43,227 nucleotides of DNA. Source: Clostridia bacterium (GTDB lineage: Bacteria; Bacillota; Peptococcia; DRI-13; SV3-B141). Every line of letters begins with the position of its first letter. The stretch's first letter is position 1. Made by a program: the position numbers and the translations under genes. Below are positions 1 through 39,836 of the stretch, in pieces. The notes under the pieces are model-generated. The model was given only the letters and a program-made list of their open reading frames with translations, was not told the DNA's origin and searched no databases. Location: assembly GCA_018433015.1 (NCBI GenBank), contig JAHDSB010000026.1, positions 1 through 43,227 of the forward strand. Direction: 5' to 3'.

Positions 1-1785
1 CATTTGACCAGCTCCTACTAGAGCTTCTTCCACTAGACTTACCACATATGTACTGTCGGGCATCTTCACCAAGAGTTCTGCGGTCTGTTTCAGGTTATCC
101 AGCGTTCCTTTTTTAATAAGATCTCCCTTTTCTGCCTCAGGCAGCTTATCAGCTACTAGTTTATCTATCTTCCATACCTGTCTGTATTGCTCTTGCATTT
201 TTTCATAAGTACCATGTTCATCTACTCTTTCCAAGGCTTTGCCAATTATTTTGAAGACTATCTTTGATTCTTTCAAGATTTGCTCTGCATCTTTTTTAGT
301 CTTAATTGTATTTACTTTCTGCTGTAAGTTTGCTACTGTTTCACTGACAATTTTTACTGCTTCTTGCTCTGATATATCATTATTACAAAGCTTGTCATAG
401 GCACCCTGTAACTTAGTGTCTACACCACTTGTAGTATTACTATCCTTTCCTCCTCCACCTCCAACTTCATCAGTAGCATTAATGTTAAAGTACCAGTAAA
501 TTTCATCACCATTTTTTATTCGATATGCTTGGCAACCTACAGCGGGTAATTTTCCATTAACTTTATATAACCAACCAGAAGTAGCCTTATATTGTTTTTC
601 TCTATCCCCATCAATCATGGCAAAATAGCAACTCCAGCCATAATCTTGGAAATCGTAATGTCCCTTGCCCTTTCCTTTAGTAAAGCCAGCCTTTTTCAAA
701 GACTCAATTGTAGCATGGGCTGCTGTAGGTCCTTGTTTAAATCTATCAACATCCCACCCCTGGGATGGTTTGGCTGATGAACCTGTTCCGGGACGTAAGT
801 AAGGGTCAAGACTGAACACTTTTACGGTTACGATTTCGGATAAGACATCGTGTTTATATCCTTTTATTTTTACCGACACAGTTATTTCCTCATCTTCATC
901 AGGATTGCTTCCACCTCCTGTTTTAGACACTTTTACTAATACAGGTACTGGACGAATATAATTTTCTCCTGGTTCCGAAGTAATAGTAAATTCCCCAGTA
1001 TTAGTAGGTATGAAGGTAACTTGCCCTTCCCTGTCAGTGGTTTTAGTTTCTTTTTCAAAAGTAACAGCCTTTCCTGCCAAAGGTACAAATTTTGTGCCAT
1101 CAAATTGTTCCAATTTCGCTGTAAATTCTGATTTAACCTTTACTTCCTTTTGGGGAAGAATGAGTCGGGTTATTACAGGATCCCAGATTTCATCATCTAT
1201 TAAAACTATTTCATCGTTACTATGCACTAAAGTGTCAGGAATAATCATTCCTCCTTGATTATTAACCATCCACTGCCAGCCTTCTTCACCGGCTATAGAA
1301 ACGAGCAGGTTTTTATGAAGCTTATATTTGACCCCTGCATTATCCAAAGCAGTTTTAATAACCTCTAAAAGAGTAGTTTTACCTTCGATAATCTCAACTT
1401 CAGTACGAGGCAATAGTGTTTTCTGAGCTCCTTCTGCCCGTACAGAAATAAATCCCTTTTCTATAGATTTTGTAGAAAAAGAAATTTCTTTATCTTCATC
1501 TAAGACTCTTACTTTGCAAATATAATCTTTGCCCTCATCCAGCTTAAATCCATAAGTAATATTTCCCTGATTATCTGTTTGCCCTTGATCTATACAACAT
1601 TTTTTCTGCCCATCTTCTACTAGGATACTGACTGGAGCATTCTTATATGTGGAAATACCATTTATAATATATTCCCCATCGCTTCCAATAACAGGGTCTA
1701 TCTGAATCTCGGCATACACAGGCACGGTGAGAGATAATATCAGTAATATAACTAATAATGAACATAATATTTTCTTATTGGGCAT
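1..1785 (-). CDS. Secreted protein with two DUF4430 domains (3' end outside window)
   Basis: The frame is open from an ATG at 1785 to the window edge, about 595 codons with no stop, so the C-terminus is missing. A Shine-Dalgarno-like AAGGAAGTAAGG lies just before the ATG. Residues 1-25 form a signal peptide ending VYA. Two DUF4430-type segments are visible, at about 125-200 (GWQWMVNN, then a DEIVLIDDE strand) and about 345-435 (SGWLYKVNGKLP, then NGDEIYWYFN). The W-x-VN(N/G) core is typical of DUF4430, the family related to the beta domain of intrinsic factor and transcobalamin. An Ig-like segment (about 205-285) separates them and a charged helical segment follows (about 455-595). It lies 60 bp downstream of the toroid gene with no terminator between, so it should be cotranscribed from the cobalamin riboswitch. 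Inference: extracellular corrinoid or ligand binding. DUF4430 also occurs in adhesins, so the ligand is not proved. Confidence 0.8.
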   Translation of the reverse strand, partial: MPNKKILCSLLVILLILSLTVPVYAEIQIDPVIGSDGEYIINGISTYKNAPVSILVEDGQKKCCIDQGQTDNQGNITYGFKLDEGKDYICKVRVLDEDKEISFSTKSIEKGFISVRAEGAQKTLLPRTEVEIIEGKTTLLEVIKTALDNAGVKYKLHKNLLVSIAGEEGWQWMVNNQGGMIIPDTLVHSNDEIVLIDDEIWDPVITRLILPQKEVKVKSEFTAKLEQFDGTKFVPLAGKAVTFEKETKTTDREGQVTFIPTNTGEFTITSEPGENYIRPVPVLVKVSKTGGGSNPDEDEEITVSVKIKGYKHDVLSEIVTVKVFSLDPYLRPGTGSSAKPSQGWDVDRFKQGPTAAHATIESLKKAGFTKGKGKGHYDFQDYGWSCYFAMIDGDREKQYKATSGWLYKVNGKLPAVGCQAYRIKNGDEIYWYFNINATDEVGGGGGKDSNTTSGVDTKLQGAYDKLCNNDISEQEAVKIVSETVANLQQKVNTIKTKKDAEQILKESKIVFKIIGKALERVDEHGTYEKMQEQYRQVWKIDKLVADKLPEAEKGDLIKKGTLDNLKQTAELLVKMPDSTYVVSLVEEALVGAGQM

Positions 1786-1845
1786 ATCCTTACTTCCTTT
1801 CTATCCACTAGTAATAAACAACTTATTAATGGGTGATTTTTATTA

Positions 1846-4800
1846 CTAATCTGTTACTTCTACTACTATCGGTTTGCCTAAAATATTTCTGTTCTCCATA
1901 TTATCCCATACAAAACCTTTCACCTGATAGCTTCCTGTTTCAGGAATTACAAAACCCCCAGCTAGTTCCTCACTTCCATTTGGCACAATATTTTTAGTAA
2001 CATAACTATAATTAATCATCTTATTCTCTGTTTCTCTAAATAAAACAATTATTAATGTAGCCTCTTGTTCATTTCCCGAAATATTTTTAGCCTTAATTCT
2101 CAAATGAGCTTCATGACCTTTCTTAAAGTCGGCACTTCCTATTCTTTCTACTTCAAATTCTGGAATCATATAATACACAGTAACATTCATTGTTTTAGTA
2201 TTTTGGGCCTTATCTGTGGCTGATATAGTAATAATGTTTCTACCCTTATTTAAATTTACAGTATATTCACCTTCTTCATTAGGTTTTAGCACTACATCAC
2301 CTTGTTTCACAACAGGAACTACTTCATAATCTACATTATCTGTAACTTTTACCTTAAAGATTACTTGTTGAGTTTCTACTACTTGTCCATCTTCCAAATC
2401 TTTTAACGCTATTTTTGGTGCCATTTTATCTGTTCCGGAACTATCTTTTTCCCAATGATAAATAGAACCTTTACCATCCAAATAATAAATATATTGGGCT
2501 AAAGCGTATAAAGCTTGTTCATTTGCCATTCCGTTAAATTGTAAATCTCCTTCATTACTCACATGGGCAAAGCCCCTATGATTTTCTAATTCAAAACTTA
2601 GCAAAGCAGAAACCACATTTTTCCCGTTTATCGTAAATTCTTCTCCTGTGGGATCTATTCTATTCGTGCACAGTCCCATAAGTACTTGTGCACAGCTTTC
2701 AGAAGTGCTAGTACCCCAAGTTGCAAAAGAACCGTCCTCGCGCTGACTGAACCTTAGCCAATCTAAAGCTCTTTCTATTGCTGCTTGCACTTTGGGAAAT
2801 TTATCATTGTTATATGGTGCTAAGGCTGTCAAAGCCATACCAGTCATATCTGAATCTGCATTATCTGCCCCATACACCCATCCTGCTTTTTTTCCATATT
2901 CAGTTTCTTCATTACTGCATTCTAATTCTAAGATCTTATTTATTATCTTTTCCCTGTTCCATTTTGCATTTGTCGGCACCTGATATTCTTGAGCATCTAA
3001 GGCAATTAAGCCATATACTAACGCATTTATACCCTGATTCTCTAAATCAGCATTGTATATTTTTTCGATTAAATTATATCCAGCTACATTTGTAGGATCT
3101 CCGCCCGCAGCTAAGACACCCAAAGTAATCCTTTCATATTGTGTAGGTTCTGAAAATTCTCCTTTATTATCTCTTACATATTGTTCAGCCTCTGCTAGAT
3201 AATCAGCTGGGATTAATTCATCATTTCCTGTTCTTGCTAAACCTATTACTGCCCAATCAGAGCTATGATTATTATTTGGTGCAAGTTTGGCTGCTCCTGC
3301 TATTGCATTTTCAACCTTTTCACGGAGGGATATTACTTCAACTCTTTTTAATGAAATAATTTCCGATACATCTTCATCACATACTGTAATTGTTCCTGTG
3401 GCTTCTTCAAAGCCTTCTTTTGCTATTATATAGCTGTATTCACCAGCTTTTAATTTATAAGTTCCATCATCTTCTTCATCTACTACTTTATCTTCATCAT
3501 CTTTTATTGTTATATTTGAGTCTATTACTAACTCACCTTTATCATCTTTGATTTCTAAAGAAACTTTATAGAGAATCGGTTCTTCTTTGTGATATGTTAC
3601 TGTAAATGTTTTTTTAATTTCCTTGGCTTCTTTGTCTTTTGCAATAATTGTTATTTTATTGGGCCCTTCCTTTAAGATAGCAGTATATGTGCCATCTTCA
3701 TTAAGCTCAATTACATCTGCTCCCAACTTAACTTCTTGTATGGAAATACCGGTACTCGTTGTTACTGTAAAGGTTACTTCCGGATTAATAACTATCTCCT
3801 CATCTTGAATTCCTTTTATTTCTATGCCTTCTCCATAGGCATAAACCTTTCCATTTGCTATAGTAAAAATTTGACCGTCAGCTATAGCCGGTGTAGCTCC
3901 ACCATCTTTAGATTCCCATATTATCTCATGGGTATCCAGATCTATAGATTTTATCCCCTGATATTCCATTTCACCATTTACTGCCACACCGGCAAAAAGT
4001 TTACCATCGGCTATTACAGTCGAGTTAGTCCAATTACCAACATCAGCAATATTCCATATTTCATTTCCGTTTTCAGCATCATAACAAGCTACATTTCCTG
4101 TTCCATATCCCCACTGGGGACAACCACCGCTGATATATACGTATCCATTATGATAAGCTGGGGTAGCATCTGTTTGAGGGGCTTCAACTTGCCACTTTAA
4201 AGTTCCCGTTTCAGTATCTACTGCTGCTAATTGTCCTAATCCACCAAAATTATATCCTGAAATATATACTGTTCCATTAGCAATCGTTGGTGAACCACAA
4301 GCATTATTTCCATATTCTAAAGCATCAACAGCCCACTGTTCTTTACCAGTCTTCAAGTCTACACAATATAAATCTTTTTTTGCATTATACCGTTGATTCC
4401 AGCTTGTGAAATATACCTTTCCATCTGCATAACCGGGGGTTCCTTGAGCATATCCATCTTCATCTAATTCAAATTGCCACTTTATATCTCCTGTTTTTTC
4501 ATCCACACAGTAATAGGTATGTCCATCCCAATTGCCTACCAATACATTCCCTTTTACTACTTTAGTAGAGCTATTACAAACGGGACCGTTAAGTCCGATA
4601 TTCCACTCTTCGGTTCCATCTTCCGCTTTAAAACAAAATAACTTACTTCCTGCTCCTAAAAATATCTTCCCGTTATGATAAGACGGTGTGTGCCAACCTC
4701 CTAGCCCATCTCCCGGTACGTCTTTGCTCCATATTGTTTTACCTGTATTTTTATCCAAGCAGGTTAAACTTGTCCAACCCCGAGCATATACTTTATCTTT

Positions 4801-6306
4801 CACAACAATGGGTGAAGAGGAAACAGCACCATCAATATTCTCACTGTCCCATAATTTAACTAAGGAATCACATAGTTTTGCTGGTGATACCCCTGTATTG
4901 TGAGAATTAGCGCCGAATTGGGTCCAATTCTTGGCTGGGTCTAATTTTTCTTCTTCTGGAGATTCTTCCGGATTTTTATCTCCCCAGTGATAAATAGATC
5001 CTTTGCCATCTAAATAATAAAGATATTGGGCTAACCCATACAAAGCTTGTTCATTCGCCATACCATTTGGTTTAAAACCATAATCTTTAGTATGGGCAAA
5101 GCCCTCACCTGTCCGATAACTCAATAAAGCATCTATTAAATTCATATCACCCTTAGTAAATTTTTCTCCTATGGGATCTTCATTATTTAAACATAATCCC
5201 ATTAAAGCTTGTACAATACTTTCGGGGCCGCCTGTTCCATATGCAGTTCTAAATTCCCCATCTTCATACTGAATTGCTGATAGATACTCTATTGCTCTAG
5301 CTATAGCTTCCTGTACTTGAGGATATTTATCATTATTGTATGGTGCCAAGGCTATCATGGCCATACCGGTCATATCAGGATCGCCATTGCTACCATAGAA
5401 GGCCCAGCCCCCTCTACCACCATCATACATAGAATTATCTTCATTACTGCACTCTGCGTCCACCAATACTTGAACTAATTTATCTCTATTCCATTCTGCA
5501 TCTGCAGGTATTTTATATTCCCCTGCATCTAAAGCAATCAAACCAAAAATAAAAGCATTGTTACCTTGCCAAGCTAAATCAGCATTGTATATCTTTTCTA
5601 TTAAATTATATCCTCCGATATTTGTGGGATCTCCTCCCGCAGCTAATATTCCTAAAGTCAATCTTTCATATTCAGTAGGCTTTCTAAATTCCCCATCATT
5701 AGCTTTTAGATATTCTTCCACATGTTCTAAATAATCAGCCGGTATTAGTTCTTCATTACCTGTTCTAGCTAACCCTACCGTTGTCCAATCAGAATAACTA
5801 CCCTCAGCATATTGTGCTGCCTCTTCTATAGCAGCTTCTATTTCTGCTCTGTAATCTTTTAATTTCTTTACTTCTAATTCTTTTTCATTTTTACTAACTT
5901 TTAGATTTTCATAATACTTATTATTCTCGGAAAACATTAGCTCTATTTGATAATTCCCACAATCTACCCCTGCAGGTATCTCCAAACTTACCTTGGCTTT
6001 ACCTTGATTATCAGTACTGCCTAATACAACTACCTTTTCATGCTCAGCAGTTTTATAATACTTATTTAACGCTGTATCCCATAAAGATAAATATAAATCT
6101 GCATCAGCATCATCGGGAGAATATACTGTGGCAGTGATACTATCACCGGCAATAACTTCGGATTTATCTAATGATAAAACCTCTTGAGCTGCTGCATAGG
6201 CTTCCTGTACGCCTAACATAACAAAATTACTCGGTAATAGTACATTACATACTAAAAACGCTAATATAATAAAAAATGAAATATATCTTTTACTATTCTT
6301 TATCAT
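1846..6306 (-). CDS. Giant secreted double alpha-toroid / PQQ-propeller protein
   Basis: 1486 aa. The ATG at 6306 follows GGAGGGG at good spacing. Residues 1-40 are a signal peptide ending AYAAA. Order of parts: N-terminal beta segment (about 45-150); a first prenyltransferase/cobalamin-binding-like alpha/alpha toroid (about 150-440); a seven-blade PQQ-type beta-propeller (about 465-825; blades recur as LxCxDxxTGxxxW); an Ig-like segment (about 830-910); a PEGA-like segment (about 910-990); a second toroid (about 990-1290); an Ig-like segment and a C-terminal beta domain. The two toroids are close duplicates, sharing for example GLARTGN, LAAGGDPTN and NGMANEQALY. There is no sortase or SLH motif. 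It is the first gene after a cobalamin riboswitch and is followed by a DUF4430 gene. The toroid family includes squalene cyclases, terpenoid synthases and the alpha domain of intrinsic factor; with this context, corrinoid binding is the favoured inference. Confidence 0.85.
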   Translation of the reverse strand: MIKNSKRYISFFIILAFLVCNVLLPSNFVMLGVQEAYAAAQEVLSLDKSEVIAGDSITATVYSPDDADADLYLSLWDTALNKYYKTAEHEKVVVLGSTDNQGKAKVSLEIPAGVDCGNYQIELMFSENNKYYENLKVSKNEKELEVKKLKDYRAEIEAAIEEAAQYAEGSYSDWTTVGLARTGNEELIPADYLEHVEEYLKANDGEFRKPTEYERLTLGILAAGGDPTNIGGYNLIEKIYNADLAWQGNNAFIFGLIALDAGEYKIPADAEWNRDKLVQVLVDAECSNEDNSMYDGGRGGWAFYGSNGDPDMTGMAMIALAPYNNDKYPQVQEAIARAIEYLSAIQYEDGEFRTAYGTGGPESIVQALMGLCLNNEDPIGEKFTKGDMNLIDALLSYRTGEGFAHTKDYGFKPNGMANEQALYGLAQYLYYLDGKGSIYHWGDKNPEESPEEEKLDPAKNWTQFGANSHNTGVSPAKLCDSLVKLWDSENIDGAVSSSPIVVKDKVYARGWTSLTCLDKNTGKTIWSKDVPGDGLGGWHTPSYHNGKIFLGAGSKLFCFKAEDGTEEWNIGLNGPVCNSSTKVVKGNVLVGNWDGHTYYCVDEKTGDIKWQFELDEDGYAQGTPGYADGKVYFTSWNQRYNAKKDLYCVDLKTGKEQWAVDALEYGNNACGSPTIANGTVYISGYNFGGLGQLAAVDTETGTLKWQVEAPQTDATPAYHNGYVYISGGCPQWGYGTGNVACYDAENGNEIWNIADVGNWTNSTVIADGKLFAGVAVNGEMEYQGIKSIDLDTHEIIWESKDGGATPAIADGQIFTIANGKVYAYGEGIEIKGIQDEEIVINPEVTFTVTTSTGISIQEVKLGADVIELNEDGTYTAILKEGPNKITIIAKDKEAKEIKKTFTVTYHKEEPILYKVSLEIKDDKGELVIDSNITIKDDEDKVVDEEDDGTYKLKAGEYSYIIAKEGFEEATGTITVCDEDVSEIISLKRVEVISLREKVENAIAGAAKLAPNNNHSSDWAVIGLARTGNDELIPADYLAEAEQYVRDNKGEFSEPTQYERITLGVLAAGGDPTNVAGYNLIEKIYNADLENQGINALVYGLIALDAQEYQVPTNAKWNREKIINKILELECSNEETEYGKKAGWVYGADNADSDMTGMALTALAPYNNDKFPKVQAAIERALDWLRFSQREDGSFATWGTSTSESCAQVLMGLCTNRIDPTGEEFTINGKNVVSALLSFELENHRGFAHVSNEGDLQFNGMANEQALYALAQYIYYLDGKGSIYHWEKDSSGTDKMAPKIALKDLEDGQVVETQQVIFKVKVTDNVDYEVVPVVKQGDVVLKPNEEGEYTVNLNKGRNIITISATDKAQNTKTMNVTVYYMIPEFEVERIGSADFKKGHEAHLRIKAKNISGNEQEATLIIVLFRETENKMINYSYVTKNIVPNGSEELAGGFVIPETGSYQVKGFVWDNMENRNILGKPIVVEVTD

Positions 6307-6463
6307 TTTTTCCCCTCCACTTATATTTATGATAATACTTTCATAACTTTAAATTTTGTCTTTTTTATTACACTATATTCCCCTCCTTTCTTGGGATAGA
6401 AACTATAATCATATTTTTACATTTTTATGGAAGTTAAAATCCTTACATAATTTGTACTAGAAT

Positions 6464-6492
6464 AAAAAAATCCTTAGCTCAAAAGCTAAGGA
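6464..6492 (-). terminator. Intrinsic terminator of the cobalamin riboswitch
   Basis: Read on the minus strand, a perfect 9-bp stem TCCTTAGCT / AGCTAAGGA with a 4-nt loop is followed by seven Ts. It lies about 60 nt after the 3' end of the aptamer and about 155 nt before the start of the toroid gene. This position is that of an expression platform for transcription attenuation, so bound cobalamin is expected to switch the downstream operon off. I did not work out the competing antiterminator pairing. Confidence 0.85.
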
Positions 6493-6552
6493 ATGAATGC
6501 CCATTTTTTCATACCTAATTGTATTTTTAGCAGTAATCTCTCCCTAGATCTT

Positions 6553-6718
6553 TGCTCACCATTCAGGCAGGTCTTCTGGCTCTCACATCATCCTCTTCCC
6601 TCATCTTCCCAGGAATTATCCCAGTGACATCAGTGGAGATTCGTCAGTGATTACAGCGGCGGGCCCGCATCGGATTTTAACCGATTTCCCTATTATCCCT
6701 AATCAAGGGCACCTAAAA
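6553..6718 (-). promoter_or_regulatory. Cobalamin riboswitch
   Basis: On the minus strand the conserved blocks of the AdoCbl-type riboswitch appear in order: GGGAAATCGG, AAAATCC, GCGGGCCCGCCGCTGTAA (the B12 box, about 6651-6672) and GCCAGAAGACCTGCCTGAAT (6580-6561). Their spacing fits the family. A possible minus-strand -10 TATAAT lies at 6798-6793 without a good -35. The element is followed by an intrinsic terminator and then the toroid and DUF4430 genes, so it directly ties these secreted proteins to corrinoid status. In the family, ligand binding represses. The exact subclass cannot be told by eye. Confidence 0.95.
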
Positions 6719-6919
6719 GGTTTTTATTTGATTTTCACTTCCATATTATTCTTAACATACTCTTTTATTAAAGTAAACTTGCCTGCTTTCCTATTATACA
6801 AGTCTATTTTGCAATTTTATTTGCTTAGAATTCCAGTTTTCATGCTTGCTTTGATAAATATCACATATTTTTTAAAAACATTATTCTTATCCCTTTTTTC
6901 CTAATTAACAGTATTCCTT

Positions 6920-9417: not shown

Positions 9418-10548
9418 TTACAGGTAAATTCTGGGTACACGTTCCGAGATCATACAAGTTACTTCATAATTTATGGTACCCAAAATCTCCGCTAATTCAT
9501 CCACAGAAATAAATTCTTTGCCATCATGCCCAATTAACGTCAGCTTTTCTCCTTGTTTTAAGATCGGTTCAATATTTGTAACGTTAACCATGCATTGATC
9601 CATACAGATTCTTCCTACTAGCGGTACCCTTTGTCCTCGACAAATTCCTTGAACTTTACCTGACAACAGCCTGGAGTATCCATCAGCATAACCTATAGGT
9701 AACGTTGCTATGATGGCTGCACTATCCGTAACATAACGTCCTCCATAACTAATGGCAGTCTGAGGCGGTACTTCTTTAACATAAGCTATTTTAGCTCGCA
9801 AGGAAAAAACCTGACGCAGATCTAATCTTTCTAGGTGGACCTCATCTGAAGGTTTGAGACCATAAAGAATAATTCCTGGTCGCACCATATCAAAATATGC
9901 CTCGGGATAGTCAATAATAGCTGCACTATTAGCTGCATGTTTAATTTTAAAAATATGTCCTGTTTTTTTCTCAATTTGACTTACAAAATCTTTAAACTTG
10001 TTAAGTTGTTCCCCAGTATAAGTTTTATCTCTTTCATCAGCTTTAGCCAAATGGGTAAAGATTCCTTCCACTGCCAAGCCGGATAAATCTAGTATTTTTT
10101 CAATTTGTGCAAGGTAATGCCCATTGGTTTGAAATCCAATGCGCCCCATACCGGTGTCAATTTTTAAATGTACTAGGGCCGTTTTTTTCTCTCTTGTAGC
10201 TATTCGTGAAAGTTTCTGCGCTTCCTGCAAGGAAAAAATGGCAAGGGTAATATCATGCTGTAGAGCTCGTTCATAATCTGCTTCCGGAGTCCATCCCAGA
10301 ATCAGAATGGGCTTGGTGATTCCCCCCTGTCGCAACTCTACGGCTTCATTCATAATGGCTACAGCAAATCCATCTGCTCCCTCTCGGCCTAGTGTTTTAG
10401 CAACCTGCAAAGCCCCATGCCCATAAGCATTAGCTTTTACTACAGCCATCACTTTGACAGTTGGTCCTACTAAACGTCTTACCTCTTTATAATTATGCCT
10501 AATATTTTCTAAATTTATTTCTGCCCATACGGGCCGTTGTCCTTCCAC
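9418..10548 (-). CDS. alr: Alanine racemase
   Basis: 376 aa, standard length. It interconverts L- and D-alanine with PLP for peptidoglycan synthesis. The PLP-lysine motif VVKANAYGHG places the lysine at about residue 38 and the second catalytic base is the tyrosine in ISYGGRYV near residue 265. The start is GTG at 10548 after GAGGGAGA. It is the last gene of the cdaA-cdaR-glmM-acpS-nnr-alr run, 16 bp after nnr, and precedes the toxin-antitoxin pair, which has its own promoter. Confidence 0.97.
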   Translation of the reverse strand: MEGQRPVWAEINLENIRHNYKEVRRLVGPTVKVMAVVKANAYGHGALQVAKTLGREGADGFAVAIMNEAVELRQGGITKPILILGWTPEADYERALQHDITLAIFSLQEAQKLSRIATREKKTALVHLKIDTGMGRIGFQTNGHYLAQIEKILDLSGLAVEGIFTHLAKADERDKTYTGEQLNKFKDFVSQIEKKTGHIFKIKHAANSAAIIDYPEAYFDMVRPGIILYGLKPSDEVHLERLDLRQVFSLRAKIAYVKEVPPQTAISYGGRYVTDSAAIIATLPIGYADGYSRLLSGKVQGICRGQRVPLVGRICMDQCMVNVTNIEPILKQGEKLTLIGHDGKEFISVDELAEILGTINYEVTCMISERVPRIYL

Positions 10549-10564
10549 TCTCCCTCGCCTCTCT

Positions 10565-12124
10565 TTATTCTTTTACAGCTTCCAATTCTTTTAAAACTAA
10601 GGGGATTTTTTCAAGAATATCGCTAGCTATTACTCCCCGCATCCCCTTTTCTTCTGCCAATATATCACCTATTAAACCATGAATATATACTCCCAGATAA
10701 GCAGCTTTGAGGGGTTCAATTCCTTGAGCCACAAGGCCTCCAATAATTCCTGCCAGCACATCTCCTGCACCTGCTGTGGCCAATGCGGGACAACCTGTGG
10801 AATTGATATAAACATGTCCCTGGGGAGATGCAGTAACGGTGGCAGCTCCCTTTAATACAACGATGGCATCTAAGCTTTTTGCAGCTTCTCGGGCAACTTC
10901 CACCCTGTTTTCCTGAACTTCTTTAGCAGTAATACCTAATAGTCTCCCCATTTCTCCGGGATGAGGTGTTAATATCAGGGGACACTTTTTAGCCTTGATT
11001 ATATTCACATCTTGGGCCAATACATTTAAGCCATCGGCATCAACCACTACCGGCTCTTCCGTATGTGCCAAAACCTTTCCCAATAGATCATAGATGTCCG
11101 GATGAGTAGTCAGACCCGGACCAAAAACTACGGCCTTCTTGCGTTGCAATATTTCCCTAATATCCGGCCAAGCAGCAAAAGCTAAGGTACCATTAGGGGT
11201 TTCTGTTAATCCTTTTGTAATAGTTTCCGGTAATGAAATATCAAAATGGGGTGCTACCGAAGAGGGTAAACAAGTGGTAACCATACCTGCCCCTGAGCGT
11301 AGCACGGCTTTAGTGGCTAACCAGGCGGCACCTATCATTCCCACAGAACCGGCTATAACTAAAACATGCCCAAAAGTGTTCTTAAAACCCTCCCGCTCCC
11401 GCGGGGGGAGAAGTCCTTGTACTATGTTTTCATCCACATAATACTGCTCATAATCCAAAAGTTCCAGGACTTGAGAGGGAATGGAAATATCAATAACAGC
11501 TAATTCTCCCGCTAGTTCCTTTCCGGGGTAGATAACAAGTCCCCGTTTGGCCCAGGCGAAAGTTACTGTATATTTAGCCTTAATACAAGGTTCCCCTACC
11601 TTACCTGTATCAGCCTCTAAACCCGAAGGCACATCAATAGCTAAAACCGGACAAGAACTTTCATTCACAGTTGTGATTGCTCGCTTCACATTTCCTTGAG
11701 GGCTTCCTTTAAAACCTGTACCAAAAATTCCATCTATCACTAATTGGGATTGATTTAAGCTTAATTTTAAGAGATAAAAACTATTGTCATCCTTAAGAAG
11801 ATGCCATTTTATACCTGCTTCCTTCACAATTTCCCAATTTGCCAAAGCATCCCCTTGAAACTGGTCCGGGTCAAAAAGCAGAAACAGCTTGACATCTACG
11901 CCCAGCTGTTTAAGATGGCGAGCTGCAACTAGAGCATCACCACCATTATTGCCCTTTCCTACCAAAATAATAGTATTAAAAGACTCCCTTTGTCCGTATA
12001 CCTCAATTGCTTTTTGAGCCACAGCTCGCCCAGCATTTTCCATTAATAACATTGAGGGTATGCCTATTTCTTCTATTGTCCAAGCATCTAAACCTTTCAT
12101 TTCTGATCCGGTGACAATCCTCAT
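10565..12124 (-). CDS. nnr: Bifunctional NAD(P)HX epimerase/dehydratase
   Basis: 519 aa, a full-length fusion. The N-terminal YjeF/NnrE epimerase domain covers about residues 1-215 (LLMENAGRAVA, GKGNNGGDALVAARHL, DGIFGTGFKG). The C-terminal NnrD/ribokinase-like dehydratase domain covers about 230-510 (GSVGMIGAAWLA, LTPHPGEMGRL, GAGDVLAGIIGGL). Together they repair hydrated NADH and NADPH, the dehydratase using ADP or ATP. Its ATG overlaps the acpS stop by 4 bases (ATGA), so translation is probably coupled. Confidence 0.96.
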   Translation of the reverse strand: MRIVTGSEMKGLDAWTIEEIGIPSMLLMENAGRAVAQKAIEVYGQRESFNTIILVGKGNNGGDALVAARHLKQLGVDVKLFLLFDPDQFQGDALANWEIVKEAGIKWHLLKDDNSFYLLKLSLNQSQLVIDGIFGTGFKGSPQGNVKRAITTVNESSCPVLAIDVPSGLEADTGKVGEPCIKAKYTVTFAWAKRGLVIYPGKELAGELAVIDISIPSQVLELLDYEQYYVDENIVQGLLPPREREGFKNTFGHVLVIAGSVGMIGAAWLATKAVLRSGAGMVTTCLPSSVAPHFDISLPETITKGLTETPNGTLAFAAWPDIREILQRKKAVVFGPGLTTHPDIYDLLGKVLAHTEEPVVVDADGLNVLAQDVNIIKAKKCPLILTPHPGEMGRLLGITAKEVQENRVEVAREAAKSLDAIVVLKGAATVTASPQGHVYINSTGCPALATAGAGDVLAGIIGGLVAQGIEPLKAAYLGVYIHGLIGDILAEEKGMRGVIASDILEKIPLVLKELEAVKE

Positions 12125-39540: not shown

Positions 39541-39836
39541 CAAAAAAACCTCTCGTTCCTGGCATAGATCAATCCTGTCAGGGACGAGAGGTTTTCACGC
39601 GGTACCACCCTGTTTACCTATATATAATTAACTATCATAGTCTAATTATAGGTCAACTTAACGCTGTAATATAACGGTTACCACCGGCTTATCCTACTAA
39701 GTTCAGATAAACTGCTCCAGGATGAGACACATGTTATACTCCTGCGTACCGGCTTTCAGCAGCCCCGGCTCTCTGTTGACGCATAATAATATAACAGATT
39801 CCTGTCATTGCCATTGTTATATATTAAAAATATATT
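39541..39836 (-). promoter_or_regulatory. T-box leader, probably tRNA-Leu specific
   Basis: On the minus strand the T-box sequence AGGGTGGTACCGCG is perfect (39611-39598). Upstream are AGAGAGCCGG, GCTGAAAGCCGG, a TTATC/GATAA hairpin with loop TGAACTTAGTAG, and CCGTTAT, all typical of T-boxes. The codon before ATCCTGGAGC in the specifier region is CTC (39726-39724), a leucine codon commonly used in leucine T-boxes. The 13-bp terminator stem CCTCTCG/CGAGAGG with seven Ts ends it (39542-39591). The next gene on this strand is ilvD, about 0.7 kb on. The same hairpin with GTTTT can serve as terminator for the plus-strand selenoprotein gene. Confidence 0.9.
39542..39592. terminator. T-box terminator hairpin
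   Basis: The stem CCTCTCGTTCCTG/CAGGGACGAGAGG has 12 Watson-Crick pairs and one wobble over 13 positions, followed by seven Ts on the minus strand. On the plus strand it is followed by GTTTT, 37 bp after the selenoprotein stop, so it probably ends both transcripts. Confidence 0.88.

Follow-up and report, generated by a model that had tools for sequence, protein, structure and literature searches.

Why a bacterium should place two very large secreted proteins, built in part from the domains with which animals carry vitamin B12, behind a cobalamin riboswitch is the question raised by one end of a 43,227-nucleotide contig from a member of the Clostridia (assembly GCA_018433015.1, contig JAHDSB010000026.1). 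The stretch analyzed, hereafter the window, is this entire contig (C38 among the 197 contigs of the 3.75 Mb genome), and it ends at base 1, within the second of the two genes. The initial annotation, made from the letters alone, had described a complete riboswitch, a terminator and two tandem secreted giants, and had proposed a secreted corrinoid-capture system under corrinoid repression, with the parts of intrinsic factor and transcobalamin split over neighboring genes. Our analysis leads to much the same answer, which we hold at a probability of roughly 70%: the two genes, termed A and B, appear to form a riboswitch-controlled operon for the capture of corrinoids at the cell surface and for their hand-over. 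The operon itself is real, functional in appearance and of a B12-regulated surface type, and it is a variant of the predicted kind, in that its domains are divided between two genes, a propeller is present and no transporter accompanies it, making it a satellite operon.

Gene A is preceded, on its own strand and at a distance of 243 nt, by a cobalamin riboswitch that scores above the gathering threshold of its covariance model (Table 1) and whose Rfam match is complete, with model positions 1-189 all covered; the aptamer in fact runs 13 bases past position 6718, where the initial annotation had drawn its right limit. It is one of 11 cobalamin riboswitches in the genome. The claimed terminator is also there, one being observed where 0.3 would be expected from shuffled sequence, and from the aptamer together with this terminator-like stem we infer ligand-dependent repression and its direction. 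A GGAGG-type ribosome site precedes gene A, gene B follows after 60 bp on the same strand and is open at the contig end, and the N-termini of both products resemble Sec signal peptides as judged by eye. The product of gene A comprises, in order, the signal peptide, toroid 1, a PQQ beta-propeller, immunoglobulin (Ig)-like and CarboxypepD_reg-like domains, toroid 2 and an Ig-like tail. The alpha/alpha toroids are thus as described earlier and are duplicated, with 57% identity between them, whereas the PQQ/BamB-type propeller (PQQ_2) that lies between them had been missed; its PDB matches are BamB and other propellers. Among all proteins examined, a local PQQ profile matched in this genome alone, a result that is suggestive only, as the profile was built from the genome's own sequences. 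The duplication claimed for gene B fared less well: one DUF4430 domain is clear, while a second is possible but weak (5-8 bits with the local profile, an hhalign probability of 89% over 41 columns, and a low-confidence AlphaFold2 model).

Table 1. Coordinates of the riboswitch, the two genes and their domains in the window.
Feature	Position	Strand	Basis
Cobalamin riboswitch aptamer (RF00174)	6549..6731	-	cmscan 119 bits, E 2e-29, gathering 31.5
Intrinsic terminator, between aptamer and gene A	6471..6492	-	9-bp stem, then TTTTTTTATT U-run
Gene A, 1486 aa, secreted	1846..6306	-	open reading frame (ORF) and Pfam domains
Toroid 1, alpha/alpha toroid, gene A residues 158-454	4945..5835	-	Pfam SQHop_cyclase_C/Prenyltrans; family profile E 1e-92; alignment A1
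PQQ/BamB-type beta-propeller, gene A residues 496-840	3787..4821	-	PQQ_2 E 2.3e-32
Spacer domains Glucodextran_B (845-905) and CarboxypepD_reg-like (915-980)	3367..3774	-	Pfam; second below its cut-off
Toroid 2, gene A residues 1003-1298	2413..3300	-	family profile E 2e-97
Gene B, at least 595 aa, secreted, open at contig end	1..1785	-	ORF
DUF4430 / transcobalamin-type beta domain, gene B residues 356-440	466..720	-	Pfam E 2e-17; local profile 6e-25
Candidate divergent second DUF4430-like domain, gene B residues ~138-193	1207..1374	-	weak

The best evidence for genes A and B working together is found in other organisms. Among the nearest relatives, Lutibacter sp. B2 (as named), Marinisporobacter and a Tepidanaerobacteraceae metagenome-assembled genome (MAG) encode both halves in one polypeptide, the toroid being 48-53% identical to toroid 2 of gene A and the DUF4430 region 37-51% identical to gene B, with SLH domains in addition. 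Because relatives fuse the two halves behind a cobalamin riboswitch, we regard genes A and B as a single device in two halves, these sequences serving as 'Rosetta stone' fusions. The association also recurs at large. In a survey of this genome and 59 relatives, in which 72 DUF4430 matches were set against 150 riboswitches among the matches listed, 41 of the 72 had a same-strand riboswitch within 10 kb upstream, against an expectation from density of ~0.5%, and in no other arrangement did a riboswitch come within 10 kb of a DUF4430 match. Toroid matches lay within 10 kb downstream of a same-strand riboswitch in 24/41 cases, with one in the wrong orientation. The count for DUF4430 is a lower bound, because at least 19 of the 31 matches lacking an upstream riboswitch stand, as read from their coordinates, within 10 kb of the contig start on that side. 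The association of riboswitch, DUF4430 and toroid is not due to chance, and it recurs in dozens of genomes.

A separate scan, with the narrow toroid alignment A4 as query and one genome per species, gave 265 relatives of the window toroids, and the 80 loci examined among them belong mostly to Clostridia and Paenibacillus. Within 9 kb of the toroid these loci carry DUF4430 (71/80), SLH domains (58/80) and the trio of CbiQ, CbiO and S-component (46/80); toroid and DUF4430 share a single reading frame at 33 of the 80, and a cobalamin riboswitch is present in 13 of the 16 that were scanned for it. The order riboswitch, toroid and DUF4430 giant, lone toroid, lone DUF4430, CbiQ, CbiO-CbiO and S-component of the energy-coupling factor (ECF) type is repeated in relatives. 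One locus of this Gram-positive type (L110) comes from a MAG labeled Bacteroidales, which is possibly mis-binned or mislabeled.

Because sequence profiles alone prove nothing as to kinship with the animal carriers, we relied on structure for this point. AlphaFold2 was applied to a toroid-DUF4430 fusion that occurs naturally in a relative (L058, 440 aa; mean predicted local confidence, pLDDT, 86.9; predicted template-modeling score, pTM, 0.68), and the model was compared with 350,542 PDB chains. Its top 15 matches were without exception transcobalamin, intrinsic factor or haptocorrin (E 4e-9 to 1.5e-7); these matches extend over both domains, and the first terpene cyclase trails them by some two orders of magnitude. 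Superposed on intrinsic factor (2PMV) with VIA-align, the ligand-free model aligned over 331 residues with a Z of 18.9 and a root-mean-square deviation (rmsd) of 12.7 A. A segment of gene B itself was modeled over 346 aa (pLDDT 76.8, reaching ~90 or above through most of the DUF4430 domain), and its 14 best entries were again haptocorrin, intrinsic factor and transcobalamin (Z 13.0-11.7, rmsd 2.0-3.2 A over 100-106 residues), followed by 3U7Z of Ruminococcus gnavus (Z 11.0) and, from 9.3 downward, by unrelated entries that match another domain. As modeled, the DUF4430 domain of gene B is a beta domain of the transcobalamin fold, and the initial view that the parts of intrinsic factor and transcobalamin are here split over neighboring genes is borne out by this model and by the fusions in relatives.

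The means by which the gene B product would be retained at the surface is encoded beyond the window. On contig C27 gene B has a paralogue of 1029 aa that ends in three SLH domains (57% identity over 599 aa), and the two DUF4430 copies, at 85% identity, indicate a recent duplication. Contig C53 starts inside an SLH tail (L159:1-555) that is 75.5% identical to the tail of this paralogue, as against 23-43% for the other SLH-bearing contig stretches examined, and we regard the start of C53 as the probable end of gene B, some 250 residues having been lost in the assembly gap between the two unjoined contigs. Gene B therefore probably ends in SLH domains. The SLH tail on C53 is followed by genes for a hypothetical protein, a MalT/LuxR-type regulator and an RCC1-like SLH protein, with no corrinoid transporter among them. 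The initial annotation had suggested that a BtuFCD-type transporter might lie past the left edge, which our analysis does not support: the genes on this probable continuation are unrelated, and the transporter linked to toroid and DUF4430 proteins is instead of the ECF type, while BtuCD and a BtuF-SLH protein stand in a riboswitch operon of their own on contig C136.

The genome contains six DUF4430 matches, five of them in riboswitch operons, one of which lies on contig C153. There, two tandem riboswitches lead into the gene for a giant, in which a weak toroid match is joined by Big_2, DUF4430 and a copper-amine-oxidase-N-like domain. Next come a DUF4430 protein, CbiQ (EcfT), a double CbiO (EcfA), a toroid of 324 aa and an ECF S-component. 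The latter matched a single PDB chain, 6fnp_A (E 4.8e-12, residues 15-179 of 188), so that by sequence similarity a CbrT-like S-component stands together with EcfT and EcfA on C153 and not in the window. A further operon on C27 (L019 3581-16160) consists of a riboswitch, a DUF4430 protein, two PQQ giants, of which one contains a toroid, and the 1029-aa DUF4430-SLH protein. That on C136 contains a riboswitch, a permease resembling BtuC, an ATPase resembling BtuD (both identified by eye and by similarity), CbiK and the BtuF-like SLH protein. The last of these (L026 3893-5317, minus strand), which adjoins CbiK, has C-terminal SLH domains, and its sequence suggests an ABC-transporter binding protein anchored in the wall. 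On contig C175 (L021 2251-2438 and 2460-2951), the top-scoring riboswitch of the genome stands directly downstream of the gene for a toroid-SLH protein and is followed by a LytTR regulator. The run of genes preceding this riboswitch (L020 8900-20000) begins with a DUF4430 protein and includes a cluster that looks by eye MoxR/DUF58/VWA-like; no riboswitch was found upstream of this run.

Taken together, these observations are consistent with a mechanism in which low intracellular adenosylcobalamin would leave the terminator unformed, so that genes A and B would be made and their products secreted. The gene B protein would be held in the cell wall by its probable C-terminal SLH domains, displaying the DUF4430 domain, and the gene A protein would contribute two alpha/alpha toroids and a propeller. 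Cobalamin, or a corrinoid related to it, would be bound jointly by toroid and DUF4430 on the outer side of the membrane and would then be passed on, most likely to the ECF transporter with the CbrT-like S-component encoded in the C153 riboswitch operon, which also encodes DUF4430 and toroid proteins of its own. A bolder version, which we put forward tentatively and think rather doubtful, is that of a two-protein intrinsic factor, whose wall-associated toroid and DUF4430 halves would close upon the corrinoid in trans with the propeller as a third, BtuG-like module, and which with the C27 and C153 operons would form a layered relay across the S-layer to ECF-CbrT, even in a B12 producer.

Several observations weigh against corrinoid capture at the surface as we have described it. 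The window operon contains no transporter genes. CbiD and two CbiA/CobQ-type genes stand together on contig C70, and because these, CobT-like genes and CbiK elsewhere in the genome and five B12-binding-domain genes above the cut-off are all present, the host probably both makes and salvages corrinoids, so that scavenging would not be its sole source. In the L058 model the orientation of the domains differs from that in closed, ligand-bound intrinsic factor and transcobalamin (rmsd 12.7-16 A over both domains), and when the toroid is taken alone, terpene cyclases score as well or better, with squalene-hopene cyclase at a Z of 20.9. By profile, DUF4430 is collinear with transcobalamin-2 among the PDB chains at E-values of 1.5-3.4, which are not significant, and transcobalamin and intrinsic factor are not among the best 60 chains for the toroid profile, where terpene cyclases and complement/alpha-2-macroglobulin domains are found.

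The idea of corrinoid capture is itself not new. Burroughs, Balaji, Iyer and Aravind defined the domain clade in 2007 and described secreted bacterial SLBB proteins with toroid, Ig, FIVAR and propeller domains, noted paired paralogues and CbiO/CbiQ neighbors, and proposed B12 scavenging as well as lateral transfer to animals (PMC1796856); the proposal for the window is an independent rediscovery of theirs. The word riboswitch appears nowhere in that paper (PMC1796856). What is added here, namely riboswitch control, the linkage to CbrT, SLH anchoring, the fusion and fission of the halves and the structural ranking, supports the earlier proposal. Our search of the open literature, with subscription journals outside it, found no experimental test of B12 binding by bacterial DUF4430 or toroid proteins. 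With the proteins of 2007 the window shares secreted multi-domain architecture, DUF4430 (in the secreted product of gene B), a toroid in the same operon (gene A), Ig-like domains, a propeller and the pairing of paralogues; CbiO and CbiQ, to which those proteins are linked, occur in the C153 operon and in relatives and not in the window or its probable continuation. The window differs in that its toroids are encoded by one gene and its DUF4430 by the next, a PQQ propeller stands between the two toroids, the operon has no transporter, the riboswitch is explicit, and the host has B12 synthesis genes, whereas hosts of such proteins usually lack key steps of this synthesis (Burroughs et al. 2007, PMC1796856).

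The alpha/alpha toroid and the beta-grasp domain of the transcobalamin clade are shared with animal intrinsic factor, transcobalamin and haptocorrin. Unlike these single-chain carriers, the window has its halves on two proteins (one chain in relatives), embedded in large proteins that are probably wall-anchored, with no animal-type receptor and with sequence similarity below significance. A Gln motif may possibly be common to intrinsic factor and the window toroids, but it forms no part of our evidence. For ECF-CbrT of Lactobacillus delbrueckii (PDB 6FNP), transport of cobalamin and cobinamide has been shown experimentally (PMC5997447); by similarity C153 encodes a full-length S-component of this kind with EcfT and EcfA, yet on a contig other than that of the window operon and alongside dedicated DUF4430 and toroid surface proteins. 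BtuG of Bacteroides is a surface beta-propeller lipoprotein that binds B12 (PMC6143338), and the window resembles it in its predicted riboswitch-controlled capture at the surface and in the propeller of gene A; this propeller, however, matches PQQ/BamB-type repeats and is probably not of the BtuG family, the protein is not a lipoprotein, and there is no BtuB.

The rival that survives best, though we judge it unlikely, holds that the ligand is not complete cobalamin but another molecule of the corrinoid economy, such as cobinamide, alpha-ribazole, cobalt or a cobalt chelate, or another tetrapyrrole. CbiQ and CbiO are ECF parts originally named for cobalt transport, the genome also has a riboswitch-linked CblT/CblS-like pair, and ligand diversity was raised by the reviewers of Burroughs et al. 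(PMC1796856); however, the S-component matches CbrT, a transporter of cobalamin and cobinamide and not of cobalt, and the structural matches are to cobalamin carriers. It is decidedly improbable that these are structural S-layer, adhesion or polysaccharide-binding proteins made incidentally at low B12, with toroid, propeller and Ig-like domains serving wall assembly: SLH and Ig-like domains are indeed numerous, and the C133 riboswitch precedes a Big_1 surface protein that has neither toroid nor DUF4430, but it is exactly toroid and DUF4430 that are tightly linked to B12 transporter genes across many genera. Least probable is that the toroids act as enzymes (terpene cyclase, lyase or prenyltransferase-like) in a pathway that needs B12 or replaces a B12 step, as the Pfam names SQHop_cyclase_C and Prenyltrans and the toroid-only structural matches might lead one to think, since neither window toroid has the DxDD motif of class II cyclases, which is likewise missing from 134 of 141 related toroid domains (present in 7), no thioester motif was found in the toroids, and toroid proteins are secreted and consistently paired with DUF4430 and a vitamin transporter. 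On these motif checks the terpene-cyclase and thioester-domain readings of the toroids were both rejected.

Surface corrinoid capture is a sharp, widespread and easily tested hypothesis, if not a categorically new one. If it is true, many Clostridia and Paenibacillus would capture B12 with the pair of domains that also makes up human intrinsic factor and transcobalamin, and under direct B12 control; a large set of surface proteins that lack annotation ('DUF4430', 'prenyltransferase-like') would be explained, and the missing extracellular binding step of ECF-type B12 transport would be provided. The 2007 proposal that the animal B12 carriers derive from Gram-positive bacteria would likewise become testable, and the split arrangement offers a simple biochemical test of cooperation between the halves.

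Other riboswitches were encountered along the way. The one on C133 (L024 9110-9315) lies before the gene for the Big_1 (invasin-like) protein (9585-10715, cut by the contig end), which is possibly another B12-regulated surface protein. On C49 (L027 9056-10622, minus strand) a riboswitch is followed by an ECF S-component together with an AIR-synthase-like protein, a combination reminiscent of the CblT/CblS pair for alpha-ribazole salvage. The C28 riboswitch (L022 5111-5328, minus strand, 111 bits) stands some 700 nt upstream of an unexpected target, a 649-aa MutS-domain-V gene (2448-4397, minus strand). Within the window itself, a T-box leader (39577-39817, minus strand, 111 bits) lies upstream of branched-chain amino-acid biosynthesis genes and is ordinary.

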